DNA of 64,000 nt from the NCBI RefSeq assembly GCF_000797445.1, contig NZ_JSWF01000033.1, positions 62,001 to 126,000 of the forward strand, in the 5' to 3' direction. A model generated the notes under the pieces. It saw only the letters and a program-made list of their open reading frames with translations, was not told where the DNA came from and searched no databases. Position 1 is the first letter of the stretch, and every line of letters begins with the position of its first letter. A program made the position numbers and the translations under genes. The DNA is from Lacinutrix jangbogonensis (GTDB taxonomy: Bacteria; Bacteroidota; Bacteroidia; Flavobacteriales; Flavobacteriaceae). This document shows positions 12,175-29,254 of this stretch, one piece after another.

Positions 12175-13848
12175 TTATTTCAATTCTTCCTCATAAAAAT
12201 GAGTAGCATCTTTTAGAAGGATATTTAATATTTTTCTCTCTTTTTTAATGCGAGTAGTATCCCATTTTAAGTATTTGGAACAATCTTTAATAATTAGTGT
12301 TTCAAACTCCGAAATACTAGAAATATTAAAATAAAGTCTTCCTGTTCTTCTTACAAAAAAATCGGCGAGACTATTCGCCATTTCATGATGGATACTATAC
12401 CATAATTCGGCTCTTATTAGTTTGGCTTCTGGATTTTTATTCGAAAAAACCTGCATCTGTTTTACTATAATATCTGCTTGTTTACCATAGTTTGAAGTTA
12501 AATACCAAGCAAAATAATCATTTTCTATTCCAACGTCTTGAAGCTTTAATTGTAATTTTTTTTGATATTTTTTTACTTCTTTAGAAGAGGTCATTGCATG
12601 TGTTGTAAGCGCAATTTTTTCGGTATACGATTCTTTAAGTTTTGAAACTTGTATAGAAGTCATCGTTTTTAAAACGGCATCAATCACACGATGTGCCATT
12701 TTTCTATACCCTGTTAATTTCCCTCCTGCAATAGAAATTAAGCCGCTTTTAGAAATAAACAGTTCATCTTTTCTAGATAACTCCGAAGGCTCTTTTTCTT
12801 CTTCATGTATTAAAGGTCGCAATCCAGCCCAATTAGATTCAATATCTTTGTCGGTTAAATTAAGTTTAGGAAACGCTGCATTTACAGCGTCTAATAAATA
12901 ACTAATATCTGATTTTGTGGTAACGACATGTTCTAAATCTCCAAAATAATTGGTGTCTGTGGTGCCAACATAAGTGGTGCGTCCTCTTGGTATTGCAAAA
13001 ATCATTCGACCATCTGCCACATCAAAATAAACCGATTGTTGTAGCGGGAATTTTTCAATAGGAAAAACAATGTGTACACCTTTAGTGAGATGCAAATATT
13101 TATTGTTTTTAGAAGCATCTTTCTCGCGTAATATATCTACCCAAGGCCCGGTTGCAGAAACAAAATTTCTAGAGGTAATGTTAAGTGTTTCTCCCGAATT
13201 ATGATCGATACATGCTATGCTTTTTATTTGTTTTTTAGTATTGTAGATGAATGTGTTCATCTCACAATAATTAAGAATCGTTGCTCCAAATTCAGATGCT
13301 TTTTTTAGCAACTCTATAGTTAATCGCGCATCGTCTGTTCTGTATTCCGAATAGTAACCACTACCAAGAATGGTTTTAGCATCTAGTAATGGTTCTTTTT
13401 TTAAGGTTTCCTTTTTGTCTAACATTTTCCTACGATCGTCACCTTCTACACTTGCCAATAAATCGTAAATTTTTAATCCAATTGAAGTCATCATCTTACC
13501 GTAAGTGCCATCTTTAACAAGAGGTAAAAGCATCTTTTCAGGTCTAACTAAATGTGGTGCTAATTTATGTACAATAGTACGTTCTTTGCCAGATTCCCTT
13601 ACTAATCCAATTTCTAATTGCTTTAAATAGCGCAAACCACCATGAATTAATTTTGTGGATTTATTACTTGTACCTGATGCAAAATCATTTTTTTCTATCA
13701 AACAGGTTTTCATGCCACGTGAAGCTGCATCCAGTGCAATTCCTGCACCTGTAACGCCGCCACCAATAATGACAAGATCAAATTTTTGAGTAGTTACTAT
13801 TTTAATCTGTTCGGCTCTATTAAGTATGGAAAATGGTTTCGCTTTCAT
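12175..13848 (-). CDS. glpD: FAD-dependent glycerol-3-phosphate dehydrogenase
   Basis: The enzyme oxidises sn-glycerol-3-phosphate to dihydroxyacetone phosphate and passes electrons to the quinone pool at the membrane. The 557-residue length fits the family. The dinucleotide-binding motif VIIGGGVTGAGIALDAASRG is at about residues 26-45, followed by KNDFASGTSNKSTKLIHGG, a GlpD hallmark, and the C-terminal DAO_C domain. The gene follows glpK with nine bases between, forming a two-gene operon without a glpF facilitator. In this neighbourhood it balances glycerol-3-phosphate between catabolism and lipid synthesis. Confidence 0.95.
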   Translation of the reverse strand: MKAKPFSILNRAEQIKIVTTQKFDLVIIGGGVTGAGIALDAASRGMKTCLIEKNDFASGTSNKSTKLIHGGLRYLKQLEIGLVRESGKERTIVHKLAPHLVRPEKMLLPLVKDGTYGKMMTSIGLKIYDLLASVEGDDRRKMLDKKETLKKEPLLDAKTILGSGYYSEYRTDDARLTIELLKKASEFGATILNYCEMNTFIYNTKKQIKSIACIDHNSGETLNITSRNFVSATGPWVDILREKDASKNNKYLHLTKGVHIVFPIEKFPLQQSVYFDVADGRMIFAIPRGRTTYVGTTDTNYFGDLEHVVTTKSDISYLLDAVNAAFPKLNLTDKDIESNWAGLRPLIHEEEKEPSELSRKDELFISKSGLISIAGGKLTGYRKMAHRVIDAVLKTMTSIQVSKLKESYTEKIALTTHAMTSSKEVKKYQKKLQLKLQDVGIENDYFAWYLTSNYGKQADIIVKQMQVFSNKNPEAKLIRAELWYSIHHEMANSLADFFVRRTGRLYFNISSISEFETLIIKDCSKYLKWDTTRIKKERKILNILLKDATHFYEEELK

Positions 13849-13857
13849 AACTATTGA

Positions 13858-15348
13858 CTAAGCTTCATTAAAGGTTTTGGTTCTTCTAATAGCAGTTAAC
13901 CAACCTGCGTATTTTTCTGTTCTGGTTTTTGTATCCATTTTTGGAGAAAAAACATGGTCTATTTTCCGAATAGATTCTGTATCTTTTTTTGTCCAAACGC
14001 CAGCTTTTAAACCTGCTAACATTGCGGCACCTAAAGCAGTAATTTCAATCATTTTTGGTCTGTCTACAGTAACATTTAATAGATCAGATTGAAACTGCAT
14101 TAAATAATTATTGGCACTTGCTCCTCCATCTACTTTTAGTGTTGTTATTGCTTTTCCACTATCTTCTTCCATGGCTTTTATAACATCTTTGGTTTGGTAG
14201 GCTAGTGCTTCTAAAGTTGCTTTAATAATTTCGTTTTTCCCTATATCTAATGTAATTCCATAGATAGCACCTTTCGCATTTGCATCCCAATATGGTGCTC
14301 CTAAACCAGCGAAAGCTGGCACAACATATAAGTCTTTTAAAGGCGGAATGCTATTACAAATTGCTTCAGTTTCTTTTGCTTCATTAATTAAAAGCATCTT
14401 ATCTCGCAACCATTGTATAGATGCGCCACCAATAAAAATACTACCTTCTAAAGCATAATGTGTAGGTTCGTTTGGTAGGCTGCACGCTAATGTGGTAATG
14501 AGTCCGTTTTTAGAAGACACATAATCTTTTCCATTGTTTAATAAAAGAAAACAACCCGTTCCATAGGTGTTTTTAGCAATACCTTCTATAGAACCTCCTT
14601 GTCCAAACAATGCAGCTTGTTGGTCTCCAGCAACACCATAAATGGGAATAGTTGTGTCTTTATATGTAACCGAGCCAAAATTTGAAGATGATGTTTTTAC
14701 TTCTGGAAGCATCGACTTTGGAATGTCTAAAGCAGCAAGCAGCGTGTCATCCCATTTTAAATCTTTAATATTATAAAGCATGGTTCGTGATGCATTGGTA
14801 TGGTCTGTAACATGCTGCTTTCCGTTAGTGAATTTATAAATCAACCAACTATCAATAGTTCCAAAAAGGAGTTGTCCAGCATCGGCTTTTTCCTGAGCGC
14901 CTTTTATAGTATCTAAAATCCATTTTAACTTGGTTCCCGAAAAATAGGCGTCAATTACTAATCCTGTATGTTCGCGAACATAAGTTTCTAATCCTTTGTT
15001 TTTTAAAGTCTGACAAATATCTTGAGTACGATTGTCTAGCCAAACAATAGCATTATAGACGGGCTCGCCAGTTTCTTTATCCCAAACCACAGTTGTTTCT
15101 CGCTGATTTGTTATCCCAATAGCAGCAATTTCTTTAGGGTGTATGCCTGTCTCTTTTAGAACGGTTTCAAAAGTTTCCTTTTGATCGTTATAAATTTGAT
15201 TTGGATCGTGTTCTACCCAACCAGATTGCGGATAATACTGTGTGAGCTCTTTTTTAGATATACCTTGAATGTTACCTTGGGTATCAAAAATAATGGTTCT
15301 CGTGCTTGTTGTACCTTGGTCGAAAGCGATTATATATTTGTTGTTCAT
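13858..15348 (-). CDS. glpK: Glycerol kinase
   Basis: The enzyme phosphorylates glycerol with ATP to sn-glycerol-3-phosphate. The start at 15348 (MNNKYIIAFDQGTTSTRTI) is chosen over the in-frame ATG ten codons upstream because the FGGY-kinase phosphate-binding motif DQGTTSTRT then sits at the usual residue 10 and the length becomes 496, normal for GlpK. Other hallmarks are WLDNRTQDIC, the second FGGY signature GAPYWDANAKG and the ATPase motif KVDGGASANNYLMQFQ. The palindrome at 15423-15440 lies 75 bases upstream, so glpK-glpD may be co-regulated with the WS/DGAT operon. Confidence 0.95.
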   Translation of the reverse strand: MNNKYIIAFDQGTTSTRTIIFDTQGNIQGISKKELTQYYPQSGWVEHDPNQIYNDQKETFETVLKETGIHPKEIAAIGITNQRETTVVWDKETGEPVYNAIVWLDNRTQDICQTLKNKGLETYVREHTGLVIDAYFSGTKLKWILDTIKGAQEKADAGQLLFGTIDSWLIYKFTNGKQHVTDHTNASRTMLYNIKDLKWDDTLLAALDIPKSMLPEVKTSSSNFGSVTYKDTTIPIYGVAGDQQAALFGQGGSIEGIAKNTYGTGCFLLLNNGKDYVSSKNGLITTLACSLPNEPTHYALEGSIFIGGASIQWLRDKMLLINEAKETEAICNSIPPLKDLYVVPAFAGLGAPYWDANAKGAIYGITLDIGKNEIIKATLEALAYQTKDVIKAMEEDSGKAITTLKVDGGASANNYLMQFQSDLLNVTVDRPKMIEITALGAAMLAGLKAGVWTKKDTESIRKIDHVFSPKMDTKTRTEKYAGWLTAIRRTKTFNEA

Positions 15349-15422: not shown

Positions 15423-15440
15423 TACTATGCTTGCATAGTA
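15423..15440. promoter_or_regulatory. Palindromic operator candidate, copy 1 (glpK side)
   Basis: Perfect 8-base arms TACTATGC and GCATAGTA are separated by TT. The site lies between divergent glpK (75 bases away) and the Lys-tailed gene at 15536 (95 bases away). A second copy with the same 2-base spacer stands before the WS/DGAT operon at 20756-20781. The symmetry fits a dimeric repressor such as the TetR-like protein at 18741, which is an inference. Confidence 0.6.
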
Positions 15441-15535: not shown

Positions 15536-16075
15536 ATGGCTAAAAAAGCAGATCAAACCGCATCTTTTATGGTTCGGTTTAACCAGATTATTTTTGAAGA
15601 AGATGGTGAATCTAAGGTCCAATGGCGCGGAAAAGTATCGCATGTACAAGGAGGAGAAGATCAAAGTTTTACTAACTTTAATGATGCTGTTTCTTTTATT
15701 CAAGAACGATTGGGTGATTTAACCATGGAAGCCACTAAAGATAAATCGCCAGAACAGCAAGATTCTTTACTAAAGAAAAGTTTTTCTTTATGGAAAACCA
15801 TGGCAAAAGAAGGCCCTAAAGTAATAATGGAAACTATTAAAGATCCAAGAAAACAAGTGGCTAACCTGCAAGATCAAATTAGTCATTTTGGTGAGGACTT
15901 GATAGATAAAGTGCCAATAGACGAATGGCGAAATGCTTCACGTTCCGATTTTAATACCATAAAAGAATCGATTAGTACGCTAGCAGATGAGATTAAAAAA
16001 CTAAATGCAAAAGTAGATGCTATTAGTAAGCCCGCAAAAACAACAAAAACTCCAAGAACTACCAAAAAGAAGTAA
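15536..16075 (+). CDS. Lys-tailed phasin-like or granule-associated protein, 179 residues
   Basis: Not assigned to a named family with certainty. Residues 10-60 (FMVRFNQIIFEEDGES, RGKVSHVQGGE, FTNFNDAVSFIQERL) resemble a small beta-rich domain I recall as common in cyanobacterial and myxobacterial proteins. Residues 70-160 are helical, including SLWKTMAKEGPKVIMETI, and the last 20 residues form a Lys/Thr-rich tail ending TTKKK. That layout recalls granule-binding proteins with a basic DNA-binding tail. It is nine bases upstream of the SARP-type regulator and divergent from glpK, with the palindrome between, so a role at lipid inclusions is suggested by context only. Confidence 0.55.
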   Translation: MAKKADQTASFMVRFNQIIFEEDGESKVQWRGKVSHVQGGEDQSFTNFNDAVSFIQERLGDLTMEATKDKSPEQQDSLLKKSFSLWKTMAKEGPKVIMETIKDPRKQVANLQDQISHFGEDLIDKVPIDEWRNASRSDFNTIKESISTLADEIKKLNAKVDAISKPAKTTKTPRTTKKK

Positions 16076-16084
16076 ACTTTTTAA

Positions 16085-16888
16085 ATGAATCAACTTCAGG
16101 ATAGATTAAAAGAATTGAAACAGTTTCAAAAAGATGCCGTTATTCGCATTCAAACTTTGGGACAGTTTAATCTATGGCTAGAAAATGAAAAAGTAGATTC
16201 TAAAAAATGGGGAAGAGATAAAACGGTTCAGTTACTACAATATTTAATTTCTAATAGGCAACGTCACGCACTTCATAAAGAAAAAATCATGGATCATCTT
16301 TGGGAAGATGGCGACGACAGAGATTTTAAAGTAGCATTACATGGTGTTAATAAAGTACTAGAACCCGAAAGGCCCTCTAGAACCGAACCTAGTTTTGTAA
16401 TTAGACAAGGCATTAGCTATCAGTTAGATTTAGAAAAAGTATGGATTGATGTCGAAGCTTTAGAACAATATGTTATTATAGGTAACGAAGCTTTTGGCGA
16501 AGATATAACAATTTCTAAAGAGGCTTATAAAGCCGCTATTGCATTATACCAAGGTGTGTATTTACCTAATCGTGTTTTTGAAGATTGGTCGTCTGAAGAG
16601 CGAGAAAAAATACAAATCCTAATTTTAGGAGCTTACGTAATACTTGCCGAGATATTACTAAACGAAAACCCTTTAGAAAGTATTCGTTTAGCACAATGTG
16701 CTATTGCTATAGATAATACTTGGGAAGACGCTTATAGATTACAAATGCAAGCCTACATAAAAAAGGGAAACAGACCACAAGCTATCAAAGCCTATCAGAA
16801 ATGTGCAGATGTGCTAGATCAGGAATATGGTATCGATCCACTTCCCGAAACAAAGAACCTTCTAAAAGATATTGAAAACATTCAGTAA
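16085..16888 (+). CDS. SARP/BTAD-type transcriptional regulator
   Basis: A 267-residue protein with the two-domain layout of Streptomyces antibiotic regulatory proteins. An OmpR-type winged helix occupies about 18-110 (RIQTLGQFNLWLENEKV, then LLQYLISNRQRHALHKEKIMDHLW), and a bacterial transcriptional activation domain occupies about 118-265 (YQGVYLPNR, QAIKAYQKCADVLDQEYGIDPLPET). No ATPase or sensor domain is attached. SARP proteins bind direct repeats spaced 11 bases close to the -10 element; exactly such repeats occur before the phasin-like genes at 17054 and 17432. The family is unusual in Flavobacteriaceae as far as I recall. Probably an activator of the granule genes. Confidence 0.75.
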   Translation: MNQLQDRLKELKQFQKDAVIRIQTLGQFNLWLENEKVDSKKWGRDKTVQLLQYLISNRQRHALHKEKIMDHLWEDGDDRDFKVALHGVNKVLEPERPSRTEPSFVIRQGISYQLDLEKVWIDVEALEQYVIIGNEAFGEDITISKEAYKAAIALYQGVYLPNRVFEDWSSEEREKIQILILGAYVILAEILLNENPLESIRLAQCAIAIDNTWEDAYRLQMQAYIKKGNRPQAIKAYQKCADVLDQEYGIDPLPETKNLLKDIENIQ

Positions 16889-16915
16889 ATATTTTTTTTA
16901 AAAAAAAATATACTG
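16883..16915 (+). terminator. AT-rich hairpin after the SARP-type gene
   Basis: The sequence CAGTA-AATATTTTTTTT is mirrored by AAAAAAAAATAT-ACTG, making a long AT stem that begins at the stop codon of the gene ending at 16888. It may terminate the 15536-16888 transcript and isolate the next promoter, though a GC-free stem is weak. Confidence 0.35.
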
Positions 16916-16978
16916 TAAACCATTGTGTTTGCTAGTCCTTATTTAAAATATTACGTTTAAAACAATGCCACCCTTCAG

Positions 16979-17015
16979 TTTGCAACTCATTTGTAACTGC
17001 GCCATCGTACGTTTG
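16979..17015 (+). promoter_or_regulatory. Activator-type promoter with 11-base direct repeats, copy 1
   Basis: TTTGCAACT (16979-16987) and TTTGTAACT (16990-16998) are direct repeats starting 11 bases apart. Nine bases after the second repeat is the -7 box TACGTTTG (17008-17015). The gene starts 38 bases further on. The layout is repeated exactly at 17355-17391. SARP activators are known to use this geometry, and a SARP-type gene lies 91 bases upstream. Confidence 0.6.
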
Positions 17016-17053
17016 TACCATAAATATTAAACAACACATTAAAACTATATATT

Positions 17054-17326
17054 ATGGCTACTAAAACTAAAAAAGAAAAGGCAACACTAATCAATACTGC
17101 GACTACTAAAGTATTAGGGTTAACAACTAAAGCAAACGATTTAGCTTTAAACACTACAGAAAAAGTTTTAACAAAATCTATAGACCTAACTGAAAAAGGA
17201 TTAGGACTTTCTACTAAACTAGTAAAGAAAGGTTTCAAAGCTTCGGCTAAAAATCAAGAAGTAGTTTTTAATACTTTAGAAACTGTAAAAGATAAGGCCG
17301 TAAAGTTTTTATCAAAATCTAAATAA
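17054..17326 (+). CDS. Small phasin-like protein, 90 residues
   Basis: A 90-residue, Lys-rich, helical protein without signal peptide. It begins MATKTKK and contains LGLTTKANDLALNTTEKVL and the core NQEVVFNTLETVKDKAVKF. The core NQ(D/E)xVFxxLxxVK is shared with the frames at 17476 and 18326, and ANDxALNxTExV is shared with 18326, so the three are paralogues. Length and amphipathic helices are reminiscent of phasins, which coat intracellular polymer or lipid granules. Context (glycerol and neutral-lipid genes on both sides) supports lipid inclusions rather than polyhydroxyalkanoate, as no PHA synthase is seen. It has its own promoter with 11-base direct repeats. Confidence 0.65.
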   Translation: MATKTKKEKATLINTATTKVLGLTTKANDLALNTTEKVLTKSIDLTEKGLGLSTKLVKKGFKASAKNQEVVFNTLETVKDKAVKFLSKSK

Positions 17327-17354
17327 TTTTAAAATAAAAAGGAACGCATACACA

Positions 17355-17391
17355 AGTGCAACTCATTTGTAACTCACTGATTGTATGTTTG
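17355..17391 (+). promoter_or_regulatory. Activator-type promoter with 11-base direct repeats, copy 2
   Basis: AGTGCAACT (17355-17363) and TTTGTAACT (17366-17374) start 11 bases apart, and nine bases later comes the -7 box TATGTTTG (17384-17391). The ATG at 17432 follows 40 bases on. Repeat spacing, distance to the box and distance to the start match the copy at 16979, implying shared activation. Confidence 0.6.
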
Positions 17392-17431
17392 TACCAGAAT
17401 TAAAAATAACATATAATAACAACACTATATT

Positions 17432-17479
17432 ATGGCAACTAAAACAAAAAAACAACAAAAAAGGCAACAAGTAAAGTGA
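17432..17479 (+). other. Frame-disrupted start region with an A7 slip site
   Basis: The ATG at 17432 (MATKTKK, as in the paralogue at 17054) is correctly spaced from its promoter but meets TGA at 17477. A7 (17446-17452) lies in the phase A AAA AAA, the canonical -1 slip heptamer. A -1 shift, or one extra A, gives MATKTKKTTKKATSKVKS and joins the long frame that continues past 17476. Either slippage or a one-base error or mutation explains this. Confidence 0.6.
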
Positions 17480-18297
17480 AAAGCACTACCAACGTTGTAA
17501 AGAAAATAAATACAGAATTAATAAATGCTTCAATAGCTACAATTAATACTGTTGTAGATAATGGTGGGAAATGGCAAAAATTAGCTTCTAAGTTAATTAA
17601 GAAGACAGAGAAAGTAAGAGAGCAACAAATCAATATGATTTTTGATACTGCTGAAGCTGTAAAAGGACAGTTTGTTTCAGGAACAGATAAAATGAAAGAT
17701 TTAGTTGGTTACGATGTTACTATAGTTGAAAAAGCTAAAAATATGGCAGTTAATAACCCAGTAAGCAAAAAAGTAATCGATATCGTTGAAGATATTACAG
17801 AAAAAGTTTCTGAAAACCCAATGGTTCAAAAAGCAGAGAAAGTTTCTGAAGATATAAAAAGCATGGGAATGGCTAAGTTTAATGAACTTAAAGGAGATGT
17901 TTTAGAACAAGCTTCAAAAATCATTAACAAAGGCGAAGCTATTATTGAAGATGCTAAAGCAACACCTAAAGCTAAAGTTACTAAAAAGGGAGTTACAGTT
18001 AAAAAAGTAAAAGCAACTAAAGTGGTAGCAAAAGTTGCACCAAAGAAAACGGCAGTTAAAAAAGCAAAAGCAACTAAAGTAGTAGCAAAAGTTGCACCAA
18101 AGAAAATGGTAGCTAAAAAAGCAACTACAACTAAAAAAGCGGTTACTAAAACAGTAACAAAAGCGACTCCTAAAGCAAAAACTACTGTGGCTAAAAAAGT
18201 AACAGCTGTTAAAAAAGAAACTGTAGCAAAAGTAGCCGAGGTTAAAAAAGAAGCGACGACTAAGGCTGTTGAGGTTAAAACAGAAGTGAAAAAATAA
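17476..18297 (+). CDS. Large phasin-like protein with a Lys/Ala-rich C-terminal tail
   Basis: The open frame from the GTG at 17476 gives 273 residues. The biological start is probably the ATG at 17432, one base out of frame. Residues 1-150 are helical and related to the two small paralogues (REQQINMIFDTAEAVKGQF matches their NQxxVFxxLxxVK core), with extra helices including KKVIDIVEDITEKVSENP. Residues 155-273 are a low-complexity Lys/Ala/Val/Thr tail made of KKAxATKVVAKVAPKK-type repeats. The layout recalls Rhodococcus TadA and HBHA-like lipid-droplet proteins and PhaF-type phasins, whose basic tails bind DNA or acidic surfaces. Role inferred: droplet coating, tethering to the nucleoid or segregation. 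Confidence 0.7.
   Translation: MKSTTNVVKKINTELINASIATINTVVDNGGKWQKLASKLIKKTEKVREQQINMIFDTAEAVKGQFVSGTDKMKDLVGYDVTIVEKAKNMAVNNPVSKKVIDIVEDITEKVSENPMVQKAEKVSEDIKSMGMAKFNELKGDVLEQASKIINKGEAIIEDAKATPKAKVTKKGVTVKKVKATKVVAKVAPKKTAVKKAKATKVVAKVAPKKMVAKKATTTKKAVTKTVTKATPKAKTTVAKKVTAVKKETVAKVAEVKKEATTKAVEVKTEVKK
18004..18110 (+). repeat. Tandem coding repeat in the Lys-rich tail
   Basis: Two near-identical units of 57 bases encode AKATKVVAKVAPKK-type segments (about 18010-18050 and 18067-18107). Such DNA can expand or contract by slippage and so change tail length. Confidence 0.6.
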
Positions 18298-18325
18298 TTA
18301 GATTTAACGTAAAATATAATTTAAT

Positions 18326-18613
18326 ATGAGCACAAAATCAATATTAGATGCGCCAAAGAAAATGGTATTTAAAGCATTAAAGAAAACAAGAAAAGTTGCA
18401 GAATCTGCTAACGATTATGCGCTAAATAGAACTGAAGGCGTTGTTAGTGAAACAATTGTTGTTGCAGAGCAATGGCAAACTGTTGCTAACAAAGCAATAA
18501 AAGACAGTTTTAAAATTGCTGCAACAAATCAAGATTTAGTTTTTACAGCTTTAACTGGTGTTAAGAAACATATGAAACTTAGCAAAAAAAGATTTACTAA
18601 GCTTACGGCATAG
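18326..18613 (+). CDS. Small phasin-like protein, 95 residues
   Basis: The third paralogue. It contains ANDYALNRTEGVV, which matches ANDLALNTTEKVL of the 17054 protein, and NQDLVFTALTGVKKHMKLS, which matches NQEVVFNTLETVKDKAVKF. It is helical, basic at both ends and has no signal peptide. It starts 28 bases after the large phasin-like gene without a visible promoter of its own, so it is probably co-transcribed with it, and a strong terminator follows. Role inferred from context: surface protein of lipid inclusions. Confidence 0.65.
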   Translation: MSTKSILDAPKKMVFKALKKTRKVAESANDYALNRTEGVVSETIVVAEQWQTVANKAIKDSFKIAATNQDLVFTALTGVKKHMKLSKKRFTKLTA

Positions 18614-20755: not shown

Positions 20756-20781
20756 AATATGCTATGCACGCATAGTATATT
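20756..20781. promoter_or_regulatory. Palindromic operator candidate, copy 2 (WS/DGAT side)
   Basis: Arms of 12 bases with one mismatch centre on CTATGC-AC-GCATAG, extended outward by AT pairs. The inner eight positions match copy 1 at 15423-15440 with one change, and the 2-base spacer is identical. A -7-like box TATATTG lies at 20794-20800, so a bound protein would overlap the promoter of the WS/DGAT operon (start 20917). Confidence 0.6.
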
Positions 20782-20916: not shown

Positions 20917-22758
20917 ATGGCAAAAAAAATTGATTTAAAGGATATTGTACAAGACGCATTGGATTCTTCAATACAACAAATTTCAGGCTCTGATGCAGCG
21001 TTTTTGTACGCAGAATCTCCTACAAGTCCAATGCATATTGCAACGTTAAATATTGTTGAAGGCTCATTAAAATATCAAGACTTTAAAGAAATTGTCGCAT
21101 CTAAACTGCATTTAATTCCAAAATTTAGACAGCGTTTACTAAATGTACCAATGAATTTGGATTACCCGTATTGGGTAGATGATCCCAATTTTGATTTAGA
21201 CTTGCATTTAAATAGAATTAAATTACCGGATCCATCTAATTGGAAAACGTTAAGAGACTTAACATCAACATTGTTTTCTGCGCCTTTAGATTTACGCAGA
21301 CCATTATGGTCAGTGCACTTTATTGAAGGCATAGACGAAATTGCACAAGTGCCAAAAGGCTCTGTCGCTATTGTAACAAAAATACACCACGTTATGATTG
21401 ATGGGAGTTCGGGCGTTGGTCTTCTGGGTGTTTTATATGATAGTGATGCCGATGGTAAACAAAAAAAGCGCTCTAAACCAAAAGCCTATAATCCAGAACC
21501 CTTGCCAGACGAACTTAGTTTGTTGTTGAAAAGTGGTTATGGTTTTTTTAAAAACCCATTTAAAATTCCTAAAACAGTTGCAGAAACTGCTTATAGTTTT
21601 ATTAAAAATAAAGCGGCAAAGAAACTTAGTATTCAAAAAGAATTTAGTGCTACAAAATTTCCAGTTCCAATTACTATTTTTAATGGTTCCATTTCTGCAA
21701 AAAGAACTTGGGGAACAGCAATTTTATCTTTCGACCGCATTAATGCACTTCGAAAAACAATGGGAGGAACTATTAACGATGTTATTCTAGCTATTTGTGC
21801 AGGAGCCATTCGTCGTTATTTAGTAGAAAAAGAAAAACTACCATTACATCCTTTGGTGGCTAATGTCCCAATTTCTATTAGGAAAGAAAGTAGTGGCGAA
21901 ATGAATAACCAAATTGCTAATATGATGATTCAATTAGCAACACATATAGAAGATCCTTTAGAGCGATTAGAATATATTCAAGAGCAAACCATGTTAGGGA
22001 AATCCAGACATAATACAATGGGAGCAAAAACATTAGCAAATATGGCAGATGTTGTGCCTTTTGGTTTGGCAAATTTAGCAGCTGGTTTGTATAGTAAATA
22101 CAATATTAAAGATTTACACAGACCACCTTTTAATGTTACTATTACCAATGTTCCGGGACCAAGAGGTTTATTGTATTTAAATGGACATAAAGTAGTTTCT
22201 ATTTTTGGTTTAACTCCTGTTGTAGACGGTTTTGGACTCATTATAGCAGCATTTAGTTATAATGGTCAAGTGAGTATTACTACAACTTCAGACTCTAAAA
22301 CAATGCCAGATGCTGACGTGTTTTCAAGGTATATTAGAGCATCTGCAAATGAGTTGGAAGAGCAAATTAAAAACGTAGGTAAAGGTAAATCTTCTACTAA
22401 AGCTTCAAAACAAGTTAAAAGCAAGAGCACACCGTTTTTCACTGCTTTAAGAAAGTATTTAAAAGAAAATCCTAAGCGTGTTAAAACCTACAAAGGTTTA
22501 TACCATATGCAATTAGATTTAGGAGATATAACGGTAGGTTGGGAGCTAGATTTAACAAAAGCGGAAGCCGTTATTAAGAAAAAGAAAAATCTAGATCCTA
22601 AAGTTTTAATTGAGATTGAAGATCAAAACCTTTTTGCTTTGTACAAAGGCAAATTGCTTTTAGAAGAATTAAAAATACAAGGACGAATTAAAATAACAGG
22701 AACTGCAGCGAGTAAAATGAAATTCACGAAATTACTTACGGCCTTTTTAGAACGCTAA
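20917..22758 (+). CDS. Wax ester synthase/diacylglycerol acyltransferase with C-terminal SCP2 domain
   Basis: The enzyme esterifies diacylglycerol or a fatty alcohol with acyl-CoA to give triacylglycerol or wax ester. Residues 20-470 are the WS/DGAT fold: SPMHIATL, the active-site HHVMIDG (His157-His158, Asp162), PLWSVHFIEG, a NDVILAICAGAIRRYL motif, and NVTITNVPGPRGLLYLNG near the end of the domain. Usual length is about 460-480. Here about 110 more residues (500-613, GDITVGWELDLTKAEAVI, LLLEELKIQGRIKITG) look like an SCP2 sterol-carrier lipid-binding domain joined by a Lys/Ser linker. It is the first gene of a tight four-gene operon with lipases and an acyltransferase fusion. Confidence 0.9.
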   Translation: MAKKIDLKDIVQDALDSSIQQISGSDAAFLYAESPTSPMHIATLNIVEGSLKYQDFKEIVASKLHLIPKFRQRLLNVPMNLDYPYWVDDPNFDLDLHLNRIKLPDPSNWKTLRDLTSTLFSAPLDLRRPLWSVHFIEGIDEIAQVPKGSVAIVTKIHHVMIDGSSGVGLLGVLYDSDADGKQKKRSKPKAYNPEPLPDELSLLLKSGYGFFKNPFKIPKTVAETAYSFIKNKAAKKLSIQKEFSATKFPVPITIFNGSISAKRTWGTAILSFDRINALRKTMGGTINDVILAICAGAIRRYLVEKEKLPLHPLVANVPISIRKESSGEMNNQIANMMIQLATHIEDPLERLEYIQEQTMLGKSRHNTMGAKTLANMADVVPFGLANLAAGLYSKYNIKDLHRPPFNVTITNVPGPRGLLYLNGHKVVSIFGLTPVVDGFGLIIAAFSYNGQVSITTTSDSKTMPDADVFSRYIRASANELEEQIKNVGKGKSSTKASKQVKSKSTPFFTALRKYLKENPKRVKTYKGLYHMQLDLGDITVGWELDLTKAEAVIKKKKNLDPKVLIEIEDQNLFALYKGKLLLEELKIQGRIKITGTAASKMKFTKLLTAFLER

Positions 22759-22761
22759 TTA

Positions 22762-23697
22762 ATGTATTACAACACACATATATTAAAATCTGCAGATGGC
22801 GAATCCATTTGTTATTATAAATGGGAAGCGAATCCAAATGTGCCTTTTAGAGGTCTATTGCAAATAGCACATGGATTAGGGGAACACGCTGGAAGATATG
22901 ATAGTATAGCACATCTTTTACAAGAAGAAGGCTATTCAGTCTACGCTAACGATCATCGTGCACATGGTAAAACCGCCGAAATAAAACGCTTATTTGGGTT
23001 TTATGATGGCAAAGAGTATTTCGACGATTGTGTTGCGGATATGTATGCATTGTCGACCATAATGAAAACTGAAAAACCACAGTCTAAATTTATATTATTT
23101 GGACACAGTATGGGATCACTTTTAAGTAGAAAATATGTCACAAAATATGGTAAAGAATTAGATGCTCTAATCTTATCTGGAACCGCAAGCTTTATAAAAG
23201 GACTAGGTAATATAGGGCTTGTTACAGCAACAACAGTTACAGCTTTTCGTGGAAGATCGCGAGGAAACGAATTTTTGAAATCTTTCTTTTTTGGCGAATT
23301 CAATAAAAAATTCAAACCCAATAGAACAAAGTTTGATTGGATTAGTAGCAATGAAAAAGAAGTAGACCTTTATGCTAAAGATCCCTATCGTATCGAAGAT
23401 TTTTCTCTAGGTGTCTTTTTAGATCTTATTAAGAATTCAAAAAAATTGAATAAACCAGAAGCCTTTAAAGCAACACCAGAAAATTTACCTGTGCTCATTT
23501 TTTCAGGCGATAAAGATCCAGTTGGTGAAATGGGAAAAGGTGTGAAGCGTGTAGTAGAACAATACAAAAATCGTGGTATGCAAGATTTAACTTTTAATTT
23601 ATACGAAGGCGGAAGACACGAAATGTTAAACGAAGTCAATGGAAAAGCTGTTAAGCAAGAAGTTATTAGTTGGTTAAATGCACGCATAAAAGATTAA
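22762..23697 (+). CDS. Monoacylglycerol-lipase-like alpha/beta hydrolase
   Basis: A 311-residue alpha/beta hydrolase of the Hydrolase_4 (monoglyceride lipase or lysophospholipase) type. HGLGEHAGRYDSIAHLL near residue 34 is a signature of this branch and forms the oxyanion region. NDHRAHGKT follows, the nucleophile elbow is GHSMGS with Ser116, the acid is likely the Asp of SGDKDPVGE, and the His is in GGRHEMLNE. No signal peptide is present, so it acts in the cytoplasm. It starts three bases after the WS/DGAT gene and could recycle monoacylglycerol to glycerol and fatty acid, feeding GlpK. Confidence 0.88.
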   Translation: MYYNTHILKSADGESICYYKWEANPNVPFRGLLQIAHGLGEHAGRYDSIAHLLQEEGYSVYANDHRAHGKTAEIKRLFGFYDGKEYFDDCVADMYALSTIMKTEKPQSKFILFGHSMGSLLSRKYVTKYGKELDALILSGTASFIKGLGNIGLVTATTVTAFRGRSRGNEFLKSFFFGEFNKKFKPNRTKFDWISSNEKEVDLYAKDPYRIEDFSLGVFLDLIKNSKKLNKPEAFKATPENLPVLIFSGDKDPVGEMGKGVKRVVEQYKNRGMQDLTFNLYEGGRHEMLNEVNGKAVKQEVISWLNARIKD

Positions 23698-23705
23698 AAA
23701 TAAAA

Positions 23706-24890
23706 ATGGAAGAAACCCAAATTTTATATAAAATTTTCACACGTTTAGCAACAGCGCTAAGTGTTTTAAATGGTATTTCTTTAAAGGAAGCTAAAAAGTT
23801 AACGAGTCTACAATTTAAAGAGCATCCTTTTGAGAAAGAAGTCAAAGCGCTTATTAAAAAAATTAATAAAGATGAACATGATAGCATAGAGCAATTACTT
23901 GATGAATGCATTTTAGTCTGTGATGAGTTAGGTTCAAATAGAGATTATATTACATTAGTTAAAATATTTGAAGATATCGGTCATTCTATTTCAGAAGGAC
24001 ATGACCAAAATGAATATAAATACACAAACTCTATCATCGATAGATTTAAAAAAGAGATTGCAACCATAAATAAAAAAATACCACTTCCGCCATTGTTCAA
24101 CATATTAATGGAAAGCAGATCTGTAATTGAATGGTCGTCTATTTATTGTTTGTATCCTTTTATTCCAAAGCGTATTAAAGGAAAAGGAAAACCGGTGTTA
24201 TTAATTCCGCCCTATTTAGGAGACGATTTTTCAACATCATTTGTTAGAAAGTATTTAAAATCATTAGGCTTTACAACCTATAAATGGGAATTAGGCTTTA
24301 ATATGGTAAAGTCCCATTATATCCCAAGATTAGAAGAGAAATTGGCTGATATTTATCAACTACATCAAGAAAAGGTGAGTATTGTTGGTTGGAGTGGTGG
24401 TGGAATATTTGCTAAAATAATGGCAAACAGACATCCAAACCAAGTAGAGCAAATTCTAACTATAGGATCTCCAATTTGGGGTGTTATGGATATGAAAACG
24501 CCTGTATATGGTTTGCTACAGTTTTTTAGAGGCAAATCTTTAAAAGAAAGAAACGAAAGATTTCTTGCAGAATTAGAACCAATACCAAAAGTACCAATAA
24601 CGTGTATTTACACTAAAACGGATGGTTTAATACCTTGGAAACATTGTATGGAGGCTGCAACCTATAGAAAAGATATTAAAAACATTGAAGTCTATGGCAG
24701 TCATACAGGAATGGGTGCCAATGCGAGTGTGTTATTAGTTACAGCCAATATGTTAAGTGCAAATATACAAGGCAAAAAAATAAGGGACGTCGGTTCAAAT
24801 ATTGAACGTTTTTTATATCCTAATTTTTGGAATAAAGCCGTGAAAGCATTAAAAACAAAAAAGCCAATTGTACAAGTCATAAAAGAATAA
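23706..24890 (+). CDS. Alpha/beta hydrolase, lipase or PHA-depolymerase-like
   Basis: A 394-residue protein. The start at 23706 (MEETQILYKIF) is preferred to the ATG at 23670 because the latter overlaps the preceding gene. The first 110 residues are a helical, charged region with no recognised family. The hydrolase fold begins with PVLLIPPYLGDDFSTSFVRKYL, and the nucleophile elbow is GWSGGG with Ser230. TKTDGLIPW carries the probable acid and GSHTGMGAN the His. It resembles PHA synthase/depolymerase-like and triacylglycerol-lipase-like hydrolases in outline. Its place inside the WS/DGAT operon suggests acting on stored neutral lipid or a related acyl ester. Confidence 0.75.
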   Translation: MEETQILYKIFTRLATALSVLNGISLKEAKKLTSLQFKEHPFEKEVKALIKKINKDEHDSIEQLLDECILVCDELGSNRDYITLVKIFEDIGHSISEGHDQNEYKYTNSIIDRFKKEIATINKKIPLPPLFNILMESRSVIEWSSIYCLYPFIPKRIKGKGKPVLLIPPYLGDDFSTSFVRKYLKSLGFTTYKWELGFNMVKSHYIPRLEEKLADIYQLHQEKVSIVGWSGGGIFAKIMANRHPNQVEQILTIGSPIWGVMDMKTPVYGLLQFFRGKSLKERNERFLAELEPIPKVPITCIYTKTDGLIPWKHCMEAATYRKDIKNIEVYGSHTGMGANASVLLVTANMLSANIQGKKIRDVGSNIERFLYPNFWNKAVKALKTKKPIVQVIKE

Positions 24891-24893
24891 GGT

Positions 24894-27800
24894 ATGGATC
24901 ATATTATTGCCCATCATAAATTTCAAGAAACATTAAAACAAATCGCAATTGAGCAAGATTTGGAGCTTGAAGATGTTAAAAAACAAGGCGCAAACTGTAT
25001 AAAGGAATTGTATTCTCAACAGCATCCTATTGCAAAATTAATGTCTGTAAAAAGCTTCGATTATATTCTGTCTAGAGCGTATAACGATAAAATTGATGTA
25101 GATCCAAAAGGAATAAAAAAGCTCATGAAGCTTATGCAGAAAAACTCTGTAGCCTTTATTATGACGCACAAAACCTATCTGGATACTTTGGTGCTAATTT
25201 CAACATTAGCACGCTACGGAATGCCAATCCCATATTCTTTTGGAGGAAGTAATTTAGCGTTTCCAGGAATGAAACAACTTGGGAATAATGCAGGACTTAT
25301 TTTTATCCGTCGCAGTTTTAAAGACGATTTAATCTATAAAGCAGCATTACGCCATTATATTGCTACTATAATTGATAAAGGAGATCATTTAACGTGGAAT
25401 ATTGAAGGTACGCGTTCTAGAACAGGTAAAATTATCTACCCGAAAATGGGTATTTTAAAATATATTAAAGAAGGCGAATTACAAAGTTCTCGAGCTATAA
25501 AATACGTTCCTGTTTCCATTGTTTATGACTTGATTCCTGATGTCAAGCAAATGACTGAAGAAGGAAAAGGGCAAGAAAAAAAATCTGAAAATGTAAAAGA
25601 AGCATTCAGTTATATCAAGAAATTAGGAAACGATTATGGTCGTGCGGCTATTCGTTTTGGGGATCCTGTTGCCTTAGAAGAAGATCAACATGCTATCATT
25701 CCAGATATGGAAGAAGATAGTTATGCAGATAAAAACACTTTACCACGTTTTGCTTTTGAACTTATTCATAAAGCGAATGCTATTACACCAGTAACCACAG
25801 TTTCATTGGTTTGCCATACATTACTAAACGATTTTGCCTTAACTAAAAAGGAAATTGAATTTAAGGTCAACCGATTGATGACATATATTGGTGAGAAACA
25901 AGAAGACGTACTTATAGATCGCGGAAATAAAATTGGAGTTACCATACAAAAAGCCTTAAATTTATTGCAAGGTGCTAGAATAATTCAAAAAAGTAGAGCA
26001 GGACAACGCGCACAATATAGTTTGGTTTCAACAGAATATTTACCAGCAAATTATTATGCAAATATGGCTTCAGGTCATTTATACCATCAAGCGTTTATTG
26101 AAATGGCTTTGGTGAAAATTAAAGACGATACATCGACTAATCGAATCACTAATTTCTGGGAAGAAATCATGAGACTTCGTAATTTATTTAAATTCGAGTT
26201 TTTCTACACTAATAAACCTAAGTTTAGCAGCGAGATTGAGGCAGAGTTATTACGATTCGATAAAAATTGGAGAACCATTTTAGCAGATCCAAAAGGCGAT
26301 ATTTCGGCCGTATTGAAAAGGCAAGATTTATTCGTTTCTAGAGCTATTTTATTATCTTATCTAGAAGCAGATAAAGTGGTTTGTCATACACTAAATAGTT
26401 GGGATACAGACGATGAATTTACAGAAAGCGAATTTGTAGAATTGGCTATTTTTAAAGGGAAAGAGCTGCATTGGCAATCTAAAATCACACGTTTAGATAG
26501 TGTCTCTAAACCGTTTTTAATAAACGCACTCCGTTTTGCTAAAAATGCTAATTTAATTCCAGTTGAAAGAACCTTAGATTATAAAGGTCTAGAGGATTGG
26601 AAAAATCAGTTAGATGATTTGTCTGAAAGATTATTTTATTTAAAACAAATAGAAACACTACAAGATAAAAAAGGATTAAATGAAGAAGCATCAGAAGAAA
26701 GTATAGTTCCAGATTCTGGTAATGATGAGATCCATCATGAAGAAGTAATAGAAGAAGGACCGCATATTACTGCGTTTTTTGATTTAGATCGTACAATAAT
26801 TAACGATTTTTCTGCAAAGAAATTTATGACTACGCGTTTATTTAGTGGAAAAACAACAGCAAAGGAATATTTAACACAATTTGCAACTGCACTAGTGTTT
26901 GCATCAGGAAATAGAGATTTTGAAATGCTAACTAAAATAGCGGCACTTGGCGTAAAAGGTATTGAAGAATCAGAATTTGTAGCATTAGGAGAACAAGTAT
27001 TTGCAGATTCTCTAGAAGAAACTATTTATCAAGAATCTCGAGAATTAATCGAAAAACACTTAGAGAAAGGACATCAAGTTGTTATTATTTCGGCTGCTAC
27101 ATCGTATCAAATTCAACCTGTTGCAAAAGCCTTAGGGATTAAGGATGTGTATGGCACCGAAATGGAATTGCGTAATGGTAAATTTACAGGTCGCGTTTCC
27201 GAAATGTGTTGGGGAGAAGGAAAAGCAAGAGCAGCACGAAAGTTTGCTAAAAAGAATAATACAGACTTGTCAAAAAGTTATTTCTATACAGATAGTTATG
27301 ATGATTATCCACTATTAAAAATCGTTGGTAAACCTGTTGCTACGAATCCAGATCAGAGATTATCTCAAGTGGCATTCGAAAACAATTGGCCAATTTTAAG
27401 GTTTGAAGAACCCGTAGGGAAACCTGTTGTAAATGGCTTTAGAACAGGAATGGCAATTGCGAGTATTTATCCTTCTGCAGTTAAAGGTCTAATTAAAGGC
27501 GCGATAACAATGTCTAGGCAAGAAGCTGCAAATGCAACTTTTTCAAGTGTTGGAGATTTAGGGTCTAAATTAGCAGGACTAGATATAGCGGTAAAAGGGA
27601 AACATAATTTAGAAGAAATTAGACCAGCAGTTTTTTGTTTTAACCATCAAAGTGCGGCAGATTTCTTTATCGTCATGAAATTAATTCGACACGATTTTAC
27701 AGGTGTTGCAAAAAAGGAATTAGAGCGCACACCAATAGGACCAATTTTTAAAGCTTTAGGTGCTATTTATGTCGATCGTTCTAATAAAGGAAAAGCTATT

Positions 27801-28124
27801 GAAGCGATGCAGCCAGCAGTCGACGCCTTAAAAGGCGGTATTTCTGTTGCTATTGCGCCAGAAGGTACGCGAAGTGGCAGTAAAACCTTAGGGGAATTTA
27901 AAAAAGGAGCATTTCATTTAGCAATGCAAGCAGGAGTTCCTATTATACCTATTGTAATTAAAAACGCATATATGGCAATGCCAAAAGGGACTAGCATGTT
28001 TAAGCCTACTCATATTGAAGTGGTGGTTTTAGATCCGGTAGACACATCGCTTTGGAAATTAAAAGACATCAATAAGCATATCGAAGATGTTCGTAATTTA
28101 TACCTTAACGAATTAGAAAATTAA
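24894..28124 (+). CDS. Trifunctional fusion: GPAT-like acyltransferase, HAD phosphatase, PlsC-like acyltransferase
   Basis: A 1076-residue protein with three enzyme domains. Domain 1 (about 60-600) resembles PlsB/DHAPAT acyltransferases: HKTYLD (His92, Asp97), GLIFIRRSF, IEGTRSRTG (Glu171) and a long GPAT C-terminal region. An acidic linker (about 600-625) leads to domain 2, a HAD-IB phosphatase with the DxDxT motif FDLDRT (Asp630, Asp632), IISAAT and TDSYDDYPLL. Domain 3 (about 890-1076) is PlsC-like: NHQSAAD (His918, Asp923), VDRSNKGK, and APEGTRSGS (Glu990). Together these could turn glycerol-3-phosphate into phosphatidate and, via the HAD domain, possibly diacylglycerol. Mycobacteria have a HAD-PlsC fusion beside a separate PlsB. 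This is the last gene of the operon. Confidence 0.88.
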   Translation: MDHIIAHHKFQETLKQIAIEQDLELEDVKKQGANCIKELYSQQHPIAKLMSVKSFDYILSRAYNDKIDVDPKGIKKLMKLMQKNSVAFIMTHKTYLDTLVLISTLARYGMPIPYSFGGSNLAFPGMKQLGNNAGLIFIRRSFKDDLIYKAALRHYIATIIDKGDHLTWNIEGTRSRTGKIIYPKMGILKYIKEGELQSSRAIKYVPVSIVYDLIPDVKQMTEEGKGQEKKSENVKEAFSYIKKLGNDYGRAAIRFGDPVALEEDQHAIIPDMEEDSYADKNTLPRFAFELIHKANAITPVTTVSLVCHTLLNDFALTKKEIEFKVNRLMTYIGEKQEDVLIDRGNKIGVTIQKALNLLQGARIIQKSRAGQRAQYSLVSTEYLPANYYANMASGHLYHQAFIEMALVKIKDDTSTNRITNFWEEIMRLRNLFKFEFFYTNKPKFSSEIEAELLRFDKNWRTILADPKGDISAVLKRQDLFVSRAILLSYLEADKVVCHTLNSWDTDDEFTESEFVELAIFKGKELHWQSKITRLDSVSKPFLINALRFAKNANLIPVERTLDYKGLEDWKNQLDDLSERLFYLKQIETLQDKKGLNEEASEESIVPDSGNDEIHHEEVIEEGPHITAFFDLDRTIINDFSAKKFMTTRLFSGKTTAKEYLTQFATALVFASGNRDFEMLTKIAALGVKGIEESEFVALGEQVFADSLEETIYQESRELIEKHLEKGHQVVIISAATSYQIQPVAKALGIKDVYGTEMELRNGKFTGRVSEMCWGEGKARAARKFAKKNNTDLSKSYFYTDSYDDYPLLKIVGKPVATNPDQRLSQVAFENNWPILRFEEPVGKPVVNGFRTGMAIASIYPSAVKGLIKGAITMSRQEAANATFSSVGDLGSKLAGLDIAVKGKHNLEEIRPAVFCFNHQSAADFFIVMKLIRHDFTGVAKKELERTPIGPIFKALGAIYVDRSNKGKAIEAMQPAVDALKGGISVAIAPEGTRSGSKTLGEFKKGAFHLAMQAGVPIIPIVIKNAYMAMPKGTSMFKPTHIEVVVLDPVDTSLWKLKDINKHIEDVRNLYLNELEN

Positions 28125-28252
28125 TGTAACAAGTTTAATTGTTCGCGTAATACATATTTAACATATGAAACATCGATAACTAAATTTTGATACGCAAAGG
28201 AATCATTAAATGATGTACTATGAGACCGATAAAAAGCAATAAATATTAACAT

Positions 28253-29254
28253 ATGAAACTAAACGTTGGAATTTTAGGAGGTGGATCTTGGGGAACCACA
28301 GTCGCATCATTAACGGCAAAAAATAATGATACTATTTTGTGGGCTAGAAATGAAAAAACAGTTCGCGAAATAAACGAAGAACATAAAAATTCTAAATATT
28401 TGCCAGGAGCCCAATTACATAAAAATTTAAAAGCGTCGTCTTCTATTGAAGACACGGTTAAAAATGCAGATGTGATTGTTATGGGAATTCCTTCTCAGCA
28501 TTTTAGAGAAGTACTACGTACTGCAAAGCCACATATAAGACCTTGGGTTCCAATTGTAAGTTTAGCTAAAGGATTAGAGTTGGAGACTAAAATGCGTATG
28601 ACTGAGATTATTGCAGAAGAACTTCCAGGTCATCCGGCAGGAGTATTAACAGGTCCTAATTTAGCCAAAGAAATTCATTCAGGTAAAGCAGCAGCAGCTG
28701 TAATTGCTATGGTAGATAAAACCATTGCTAAACAACTGCAACAAGTATTTAGTACCGGATTATTTCGTGTGTATACCAATAACGATGTTATAGGCTGTGA
28801 ACTTGGTGGTGCATTAAAAAATATTATGGCAATTGCTACAGGATTGGGAGATGGTGCAAATGCAGGAGATAATACTAGAGCCGCATTAATTACCAGAGGC
28901 TTATCAGAATTAACAAGATTAGGAATTGCAATGGGAGGAAAACGACGTACGTTTTCTGGACTTGCAGGCATGGGTGATTTGGTAGCAACCTGTTCGAGTT
29001 CTAAAAGTAGAAATCACCATGTTGGATTTCAAATAGGACAAGGAAAAAGTTTGGAGCAGATTATTGAGGAAATGAATGAAGTTGCTGAAGGTGTAAAAAC
29101 AGCAAAAGTAGTCATGGAACTCGCTAAAGATTATAATGTCGATATGCCAATATCTAGAGAGGTTTACAAAGTGCTTTACGAAGGTAATACTGTAAACGAT
29201 GCTTTCAGAGGGCTCATTACAATAGAAAGTGGCTCGGAGAAGGAGCCAGGCTAG
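28253..29254 (+). CDS. gpsA: NAD(P)-dependent glycerol-3-phosphate dehydrogenase
   Basis: The enzyme reduces dihydroxyacetone phosphate to sn-glycerol-3-phosphate, the backbone for glycerolipids. At 333 residues it is full length. The Rossmann motif GILGGGSWGTTVASL is at the N-terminus, followed by IPSQHFR, LAKGLE, GPNLAKE and the catalytic Lys in ELGGALKNIMAIATGL, and then GDNTRAALITRGL for substrate binding. It starts 128 bases after the acyltransferase fusion and probably has its own promoter. The last codons form a GGCTC/GAGCC hairpin (29231-29247). It supplies the first substrate for the neutral-lipid operon. Confidence 0.95.
   Translation: MKLNVGILGGGSWGTTVASLTAKNNDTILWARNEKTVREINEEHKNSKYLPGAQLHKNLKASSSIEDTVKNADVIVMGIPSQHFREVLRTAKPHIRPWVPIVSLAKGLELETKMRMTEIIAEELPGHPAGVLTGPNLAKEIHSGKAAAAVIAMVDKTIAKQLQQVFSTGLFRVYTNNDVIGCELGGALKNIMAIATGLGDGANAGDNTRAALITRGLSELTRLGIAMGGKRRTFSGLAGMGDLVATCSSSKSRNHHVGFQIGQGKSLEQIIEEMNEVAEGVKTAKVVMELAKDYNVDMPISREVYKVLYEGNTVNDAFRGLITIESGSEKEPG

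Follow-up and report, generated by a model that had tools for sequence, protein, structure and literature searches.

The window analysed here, 64,000 nucleotides of Lacinutrix jangbogonensis DNA (contig NZ_JSWF01000033.1, part of a 4.02-Mb genome), holds at 12175-29254 a multi-gene storage-lipid island that is real and conserved, and that probably serves the storage of neutral lipid, most likely triacylglycerol. The unexpected part of this island is not its lipid enzymes. It is a regulator pair, formed by the lysine-tailed protein Lys179 and a BTAD-domain activator, together with a promoter element, both of which also occur in polyhydroxyalkanoate (PHA) operons from a different family and from a different phylum.

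Conservation and enzymes of the island

Domain identities were obtained from Pfam and NCBIfam model matches of the open reading frames (ORFs) of the window (Table 1). GlpD and GlpK lie on the minus strand and twelve plus-strand genes diverge from them. These twelve form the island core (15536-29254), in the order Lys179, BTAD, ph90, ph273, ph95, TetR_C_23, ABC1, WS/DGAT-SCP2, Hydrolase_4, second hydrolase, GPAT-HAD-PlsC and GpsA. An earlier note on this DNA, written by a reader who had only the sequence, had proposed one self-contained neutral-lipid locus, and every gene that it named was present where it had been placed.

We surveyed 299 genomes of the same family, with a smaller draw of 259 for the ph273 search. 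The WS/DGAT model TIGR02946 matched 11 of the 299 at E ≤ 1e-3, eight of them over its cut-off; these eight and one genome in which the WS/DGAT gene is split between two contigs are the nine carriers referred to below. G026 and G102, with WS/DGAT matches of 3e-4 and 5e-4, were too weak and were set aside as non-carriers. Lys179 was detected in nine of the 299 genomes, exactly the nine carriers, and so was the GPAT-HAD-PlsC fusion, which is complete in eight of them and in G124 runs into a contig end at residue 855. Outside the carriers, the best match to the fusion among the 299 genomes spanned one domain, at 93 bits. Of the 259 genomes searched for the ph273 core, 7 had it, every one a carrier; G279 and G287 hold ph273 in their loci and are not among these matches, presumably not having been drawn. 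Neither WS/DGAT nor Lys179 was found in the two congeners in the sample.

The order from Lys179 through BTAD, the ph genes, TetR, ABC1, WS/DGAT, the two hydrolases and the fusion to GpsA was kept in seven of the eight other carriers, allowing for ph90 uncalled in L015, ph95 uncalled in L018 and one two-contig locus without GpsA. It was permuted in the eighth (L017), where the enzyme block stands ahead of Lys179-BTAD and the ph273 gene falls beyond the stretch examined. This recurrence is not chance. Gene order and co-occurrence among relatives were the comparisons that the earlier note had suggested, and both bore it out.

A Lys179 scan of named genomes yielded 46 loci, comprising 41 flavobacterial ones (two from a single strain of Polaribacter filamentus), four from Saprospiraceae and one from a Chloroflexota metagenome-assembled genome (MAG; Anaerolineales, L067). 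The two surveys overlap, as seven of the eight other carriers are among the 46 loci and are shared DNA. BTAD lies directly after Lys179 in 45 loci and precedes it in the 46th, L067. The coat and regulator block comes first in 26 loci (type A) and the enzyme block in 17 (type B), with three loci left without assignment. On a tree of 39 of the 42 WS/DGAT sequences (L024, L064 and L066 were dropped by the 500-aa limit), the A/B label needs two changes. Winogradskyella appears in two places on this tree, and transfer or a mis-binned MAG is therefore possible. The closest named relatives of the genome with the window, Oceanihabitans and Lacinutrix, mark it as flavobacterial.

GlpK was called in 9 and GlpD in 10 of the 46 stretches, counts in which a fusion is counted once and some stretches end too early. 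GlpK was not found in either of the two congeners. As an island-specific partner it was weakened by its presence at ≥50% identity in 5 of 13 sampled non-carriers; three more had only distant kinase matches. GlpK and GlpD are optional neighbours and not a constant part of the island, so that the proposal of one self-contained locus stands for the 12-gene core, conserved as a unit, and is weak for these two genes, adjacent in only some loci. In Ulvibacter antarcticus (L032, 6628-9795), they are fused into one 1055-aa protein (GlpK residues 1-492, GlpD 502-1055), and G206 and L017 have ORFs about as long.

The enzymes carry the residues that their assignments call for. The WS/DGAT scored 409.8 bits against a TIGR02946 cut-off of 309.95, and its HHxxxDG motif, here HHVMIDG, was invariant in 8/8 aligned copies. 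In the fusion, likewise in 8/8 aligned copies, H92KTYLD97 and EGTRSRTG of the GPAT part, D630, D632, S733, K777 and D800 of the HAD part and H918, D923 and EGTRS of the PlsC part were invariant. We take all these residues to be the catalytic ones. The GpsA copies of the islands were 80-93% identical to that of the window and the housekeeping GpsA 29-32%. Both copies were present in the carriers except G206, which has the island copy only, and G124, where the housekeeping GpsA is accompanied by a fragment, 29 residues long, of the island copy. None of the nine carriers gave a PhaC_N match, and the same model matched 1 of 14 controls; PlsY (PF02660) was also not found in 9/9 carriers, with 8 of 14 controls matched. 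PF07993, tried as a marker of fatty-alcohol formation, proved useless, as it matched all nine carriers and all 14 controls. Read from their domains, the enzymes would spell a route from glycerol-3-phosphate via diacylglycerol to triacylglycerol. Because the island has its own second GpsA and no carrier has a recognisable PhaC_N (0/9), triacylglycerol or wax ester is the most likely product.

The Lys179-BTAD pair and its promoter element

The Lys179-like gene of L067 is flanked on one side by a BTAD regulator, 40% identical to that of the window over 277 residues, and on the other by several PHA genes (PhaC_N 2e-62, PHA_synth_III_E 8e-9, a short-chain dehydrogenase and a KASIII-like gene). No match to this Chloroflexota Lys179-like protein was found in plasmids. 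Among 390 Bacteroidota genomes searched, three of one genus from another family (G311, G330 and G422) had a Lys179 homologue at E about 1e-27; four of the eight genomes matched were discounted, their matches (6e-4 to 8e-4, in the C-terminal half) being put down to coiled coils. The order in the loci of these three genomes (L095-L097) is BTAD, Lys179, a ~130-aa protein, PhaE, a class-III-like PhaC, a short-chain dehydrogenase, a small protein and a thiolase. PHA_synth_III_E was matched at 6e-27 in L095 and 2e-25 in L097, and PhaC_N at 3e-7 in L095 (Pfam was run on eight L095 genes and on one each of L096 and L097). The genomes of L095-L097 have WS/DGAT-like genes elsewhere, about 24-25% identical to that of the window. 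The Lys179-BTAD pair belongs to storage-granule loci of two kinds; that a second Bacteroidota family and a Chloroflexota MAG carry it in their PHA operons is new.

The pair is accompanied by a direct repeat with an 11-bp period, GYAACTCATYTGYAACT, likewise new, which was found 5' of 42/42 ph273 genes (38 named flavobacterial, three Saprospiraceae and the window), with a site at most 220 bases from the core in every case. In the window it reads GCAACTCATTTGTAACT, at 16982 and 17358, 5' of ph90 and ph273. The pattern GYAACYYRNYTGYAAC has 84 sites in 42 flavobacterial sequences (the window and L022-L062; 815,019 bases) and three further sites in L064-L066; first-order random sequence predicts 0.15 over all loci. 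Each of the 87 lies on the coding strand, in the interval from BTAD to the ph273 core (the L061 locus ends before ph273). No site was found in three TAG-type sequences: L035, which ends after BTAD, and L053 and L063, whose loci hold no ph gene; in L053, BTAD is followed by a foreign 347-aa ORF. Exactly 9 bases past the repeat, 82 of the 87 sites have TAnnTTTG (background 0.0007 per base), which we take to be the flavobacterial -7 consensus. Each of the four PHA operons has exactly one repeat site, just 5' of the Lys179-like gene, with the exact TAG consensus in L067, C for T at position 6 in L095-L097 and additionally G for C at position 7 in L095. The sequence at +9 is TACCTTTG in L095, one mismatch off in L096 and L097, and TATCAT in L067.

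Sites of SARP activators, in the portion of the source consulted, are direct repeats 11 bp apart with the 3' repeat 8 bp before the -10 element (PMC4393881). The same layout, 11-bp direct repeats ahead of a -10, is seen at the 87 sites, 82 of them with TAnnTTTG at +9, and BTAD is the sole regulator seen beside Lys179 in all these loci. On these two grounds, BTAD very likely activates through the GYAACTCATYTGYAACT element as its putative site. The BTAD N-terminus matched the OmpR-type winged helix (Trans_reg_C) at 0.0025 and 18.3 bits, with a cut-off of 26.2.

Several neighbours of the pair were also recorded. P. filamentus has two island loci on two contigs of one strain (L051 and L053), and in both a 347-aa minus-strand ORF follows BTAD that, by eye, is probably a transposase. 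On a 5-kb Saprospiraceae contig (L063), which carries no storage gene, Lys179-BTAD adjoins an ORF that by eye resembles an aromatic amino acid hydroxylase.

Coat candidates, putative TetR palindrome and feature positions

That the island encodes three phasin-like paralogues, as the earlier note had it, was upheld as far as kinship goes: ph90, ph273 and ph95 form a single family (profile comparison 96.5%, E 1e-9). Lys179 has no detectable relation to ph273 (1.9%). Comparison at the profile level (1.5-1.6%) did not support descent of the ph family from the small protein that PHA operons encode downstream of Lys179. The three proteins are basic (pI about 10), have no membrane segment (maximal hydropathy 0.73) and would be strongly amphipathic if helical, with a helical moment 3.4-3.7 z over shuffles; among relatives, counting only ORFs of 80-100 aa, z exceeded 2 in 39/40 ph95-type and 20/20 ph90-type ORFs. 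In being small, amphipathic if helical, free of membrane segments and encoded in a granule locus, they resemble proteins that work like phasins, the helix being taken from low-confidence models. A 108-residue tail with 36 Lys distinguishes ph273 from ph90 and ph95, which have no long tail, and in four of eight ph273 relatives this tail matches the helix-hairpin-helix (HhH) model HHH_5. These traits would fit phasins and droplet coats without proving them, and the phasin-like reading gains indirect support because the regulator/coat-candidate pair and the promoter element are common to PHA operons.

The reading frame of ph273 is broken at its start in the window. From its conserved ATG at 17432, the frame runs through A-rich codons into a stop at 17477, and the long ORF starts at an overlapping GTG (17476) in another frame. 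The relative L031, compared base by base with the window, is in frame. The break could be a sequencing slip, a slippage site or a stop-restart.

A second cis element, the palindrome TATGCNNGCATA, occurs twice in the window, at 15426 (5' of Lys179) and 20763 (5' of WS/DGAT), with 0.09 expected. Across 47 sequences it has 31 sites against 0.9 in shuffles, 28 of which lie 5' of Lys179, WS/DGAT or TetR, and it is present in 20 of the 23 named flavobacterial type A loci. In type A, TetR is the obvious candidate to bind it; type B must differ. The remaining three sites (L022 3007, L026 6166 and L031 2928) are near etfB- or pdhB-like genes, a hint that TetR may link fat storage with beta-oxidation electron transfer.

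Table 1. Positions of genes and cis elements of the island in the window.
Feature	Position	Strand	Evidence
GlpD, glycerol-3-phosphate dehydrogenase, optional neighbour	12175..13848	-	DAO 1.5e-53, DAO_C 1e-16
GlpK, glycerol kinase, optional neighbour	13858..15348	-	FGGY_N 3e-80
Palindrome TATGCTTGCATA, candidate TetR operator, between GlpK and Lys179	15426..15437		
Lys179: N-terminal domain shared with its PHA-operon homologues, coiled-coil-like remainder, Lys tail; granule-associated candidate	15536..16075	+	
BTAD (SARP-like) transcription activator	16085..16888	+	BTAD 1.4e-16
Direct repeat GCAACTCATTTGTAACT (16982-16998) and TACGTTTG element (17008-17015), 5' of ph90	16982..17015	+	
ph90, phasin-like amphipathic helical protein	17054..17326	+	same family as ph95/ph273
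Direct repeat GCAACTCATTTGTAACT (17358-17374) and TATGTTTG element (17384-17391), 5' of ph273	17358..17391	+	
ph273, phasin-like protein, K/A/T/V tail	17476..18297	+	
ph95, phasin-like protein	18326..18613	+	
TetR_C_23 regulator	18741..19391	+	4.3e-35
ABC1/UbiB-type atypical kinase	19407..20717	+	7.7e-53
Palindrome TATGCACGCATA, candidate TetR operator, 5' of WS/DGAT	20763..20774		
WS/DGAT with C-terminal SCP2 domain	20917..22758	+	TIGR02946 409.8 bits; SCP2 9e-7
Monoacylglycerol-lipase-like hydrolase (Hydrolase_4)	22762..23697	+	7.2e-47
Second alpha/beta hydrolase (GWSGGG)	23706..24890	+	weak alpha/beta hydrolase matches only, no PhaC_N
GPAT-HAD-PlsC fusion, one 1076-aa ORF	24894..28124	+	GPAT_C 5e-55, Acyltransferase 2.5e-43, HAD 2e-34
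GpsA, island-specific second copy	28253..29254	+	4e-57

The GlpK ORF opens at 15378 (TTG), the ATG at 15348 being the likelier start, and the second hydrolase most likely starts at 23706. With that start, the gaps from WS/DGAT through the fusion are only 3-8 bases, and by this spacing the block is an operon. The GC profile within the window has no anomaly across the island. Outside 12175-29254, the window encodes at 8932-9669 a 245-aa protein without a Pfam match whose relatives lie directly after BTAD in two type B islands (L058 and L059, L017 contig; 49% and 47% identity).

Proposed mechanism, rival readings and known systems

We propose that GpsA, and GlpK where present, supplies glycerol-3-phosphate, which the GPAT and PlsC domains of the fusion would acylate twice, its HAD domain taking off the phosphate to give diacylglycerol. 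WS/DGAT-SCP2 would then attach the third acyl chain, and the two hydrolases would mobilise the store. The ph90/ph273/ph95 family may coat the droplet, and the Lys-rich, sometimes HhH-containing tail of ph273 may tether droplets to DNA. BTAD, as a SARP-type activator, would bind the GYAACTCATYTGYAACT repeats and turn the coat genes on, and Lys179, its constant partner, might sit on the granule and couple coat supply to the granule surface, a device common with PHA operons. Where the architecture is A, TATGCNNGCATA would be the site by which TetR governs Lys179, WS/DGAT and its own gene.

Several points weigh against parts of this picture. The HAD domain as phosphatidate phosphatase is a putative step. 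No phasin match in Pfam (PF05597, PF09361 and others) passed its cut-off for the ph proteins of the window, nor was one found for the eight members of set A3; there was no phasin among 25 of the 36 weak families listed for set A1, and the 14 ph90/ph95 members of set A2 gave one Perilipin match (0.0073) and one Phasin_2 match (0.029), too weak to count. Searches of PDB sequences returned no phasin for ph273, whose two matches below 1e-4 fall in the tail/HhH part (profile positions 201-339), and none for ph90/95, with nothing better than E 0.13. AlphaFold models are poor, with a pLDDT of 55 for Lys179 and of 40 for the ph273 core, modelled as helices. The repeat pattern GYAACYYRNYTGYAAC was composed after viewing the sites, and the strict TAG consensus matches only L067 among the four PHA operons. 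The palindrome TATGCNNGCATA is absent from 17/17 type B loci, seven of which hold TetR in the stretch, and from 3 of 23 named flavobacterial type A loci. Finally, the ph family is unrelated at the profile level to the small protein of the PHA operons, so that only Lys179 and BTAD are common, and the Chloroflexota case is a single MAG.

The store might instead consist mainly of wax esters, WS/DGAT joining fatty alcohols to acyl-CoA while the Kennedy-type enzymes work for phospholipid synthesis. Bifunctionality is described for several bacterial WS/DGAT enzymes in the part of PMC10351704 consulted, but the island contains no fatty acyl-CoA reductase, and the company that WS/DGAT keeps, the fusion in 9/9 carriers and GpsA intact in 8/9 with a fragment in the ninth, fits a supply of diacylglycerol; we regard this alternative as unlikely. 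Membrane-lipid remodelling without storage, for instance in cold adaptation, with GPAT and PlsC making phospholipid and droplets absent, would be in keeping with the polar names of three carriers (Bizionia arctica, Arcticiflavibacter luteus and Ulvibacter antarcticus) and with PlsY not being found in 9/9 carriers, so that an acyl-CoA-type GPAT could serve phospholipid. However, no such fusion was seen in 290 of the 299 family genomes, and it is therefore not the general phospholipid route; WS/DGAT and the phasin-like genes fit a membrane role poorly, and the regulator pair is common with PHA operons. Such remodelling is highly improbable as an explanation.

The ph proteins could also be nucleoid proteins of the histone H1 type, caught in the operon and with no tie to droplets. 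The Lys/Ala/Thr/Val tail of ph273 (36/108 Lys) and the HhH match in 4/8 homologues speak for this; yet ph273 was found solely with the island (7/259, all carriers), ph90 and ph95 lack a long tail, the predicted helices are strongly amphipathic and a DNA-binding droplet coat, MLDS, is known (PMC5504291, as excerpted), and we consider the idea improbable. That the island is a PHA granule system is scarcely credible: the Lys179-BTAD pair and the promoter element are common to both, but the missing PhaC_N (9/9 carriers, with a model that matched 1/14 controls) and the WS/DGAT and acyltransferases in place of the polymer enzymes of PHA operons stand against it. Storage of neutral lipid, most likely triacylglycerol, is the reading that we prefer.

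More tentatively, and as a possibility that we would not put at even odds, Lys179-BTAD may be a switch for storage granules in general that predates the product stored. Lys179 would sense free granule surface or acyl supply and set the activity of BTAD, which would fire coat promoters via GYAACTCATYTGYAACT. The pair would run PHA granules in a Chloroflexota lineage and another Bacteroidota family; in marine flavobacteria and Saprospiraceae it would have been re-wired to serve fat droplets, the BTAD site there lying ahead of the coat genes and not ahead of Lys179.

In Actinobacteria and some Gammaproteobacteria, the storage of fat has been studied well. The island bears on whether marine flavobacteria such as Polaribacter, Dokdonia and Winogradskyella store fat, and it offers deletion targets, candidate coat proteins and a promoter element ready for use. 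As one enzyme that would carry glycerol-3-phosphate all the way to diacylglycerol, the GPAT-HAD-PlsC chain would be of use in oil engineering.

Part of the island has been published. In the sections of Galvan et al (2023; PMC10351704) consulted, SCP2-tailed WS/DGATs are reported from several of these genera together with a neighbouring acyltransferase/hydrolase. Those Bacteroidota loci resemble the island in the ~613-aa WS/DGAT-SCP2, the overlapping genera and the adjoining acyltransferase/hydrolase gene; the GPAT part, GpsA, the regulators, the phasin-like family, Lys179, the two architectures and the promoter elements go beyond that portion of the account. Among the matches listed in the neutral-lipid literature on Flavobacteriaceae and Bacteroidota (subscription papers being outside its coverage), nothing closer was found, and a search for phasin with BTAD gave only a journal code among the matches listed.

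Clusters of WS/DGAT with an AGPAT-HAD protein occur in Actinomycetota and Pseudomonadota (PMC10351704, same sections). The atf9-plsB-plsC(HAD) operon of Rhodococcus jostii (PMC10351704) and Rv2482c-Rv2485c of Mycobacterium tuberculosis (PMC10699116), as far as the excerpts describe them, likewise place WS/DGAT beside a GPAT and an AGPAT protein, the latter with HAD in R. jostii. The island differs from both in having GPAT, HAD and PlsC in one chain and in including coat-like genes, GpsA and regulators. To the coat proteins TadA, HBHA and MLDS, its resemblance lies in the Lys tail and the context only. In R. jostii, the excerpted account of MLDS and MLDSR has a droplet coat that binds DNA and a droplet-sequestered regulator encoded side by side in one operon (PMC5504291), as proposed for the island, and by analogy this system may serve as a model for Lys179-BTAD. 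With the SARP/BTAD activators from antibiotic clusters in Streptomyces (PMC4393881, in the portion consulted), the island has in common the BTAD domain and direct repeats 11 bp apart just 5' of the -10; it differs in its storage-granule genes, in the repeat GYAACT and in TAnnTTTG 9 bp on. The class III-like PHA operons (PhaC/PhaE; L067 and L095-L097) differ from the island in the stored product, in the enzymes and in a small helical protein that is no recognisable relative of ph90, ph273 or ph95, but have the same Lys179-BTAD pair and promoter repeat, which suggests one control device for granule proteins in plastic-storing and fat-storing bacteria.

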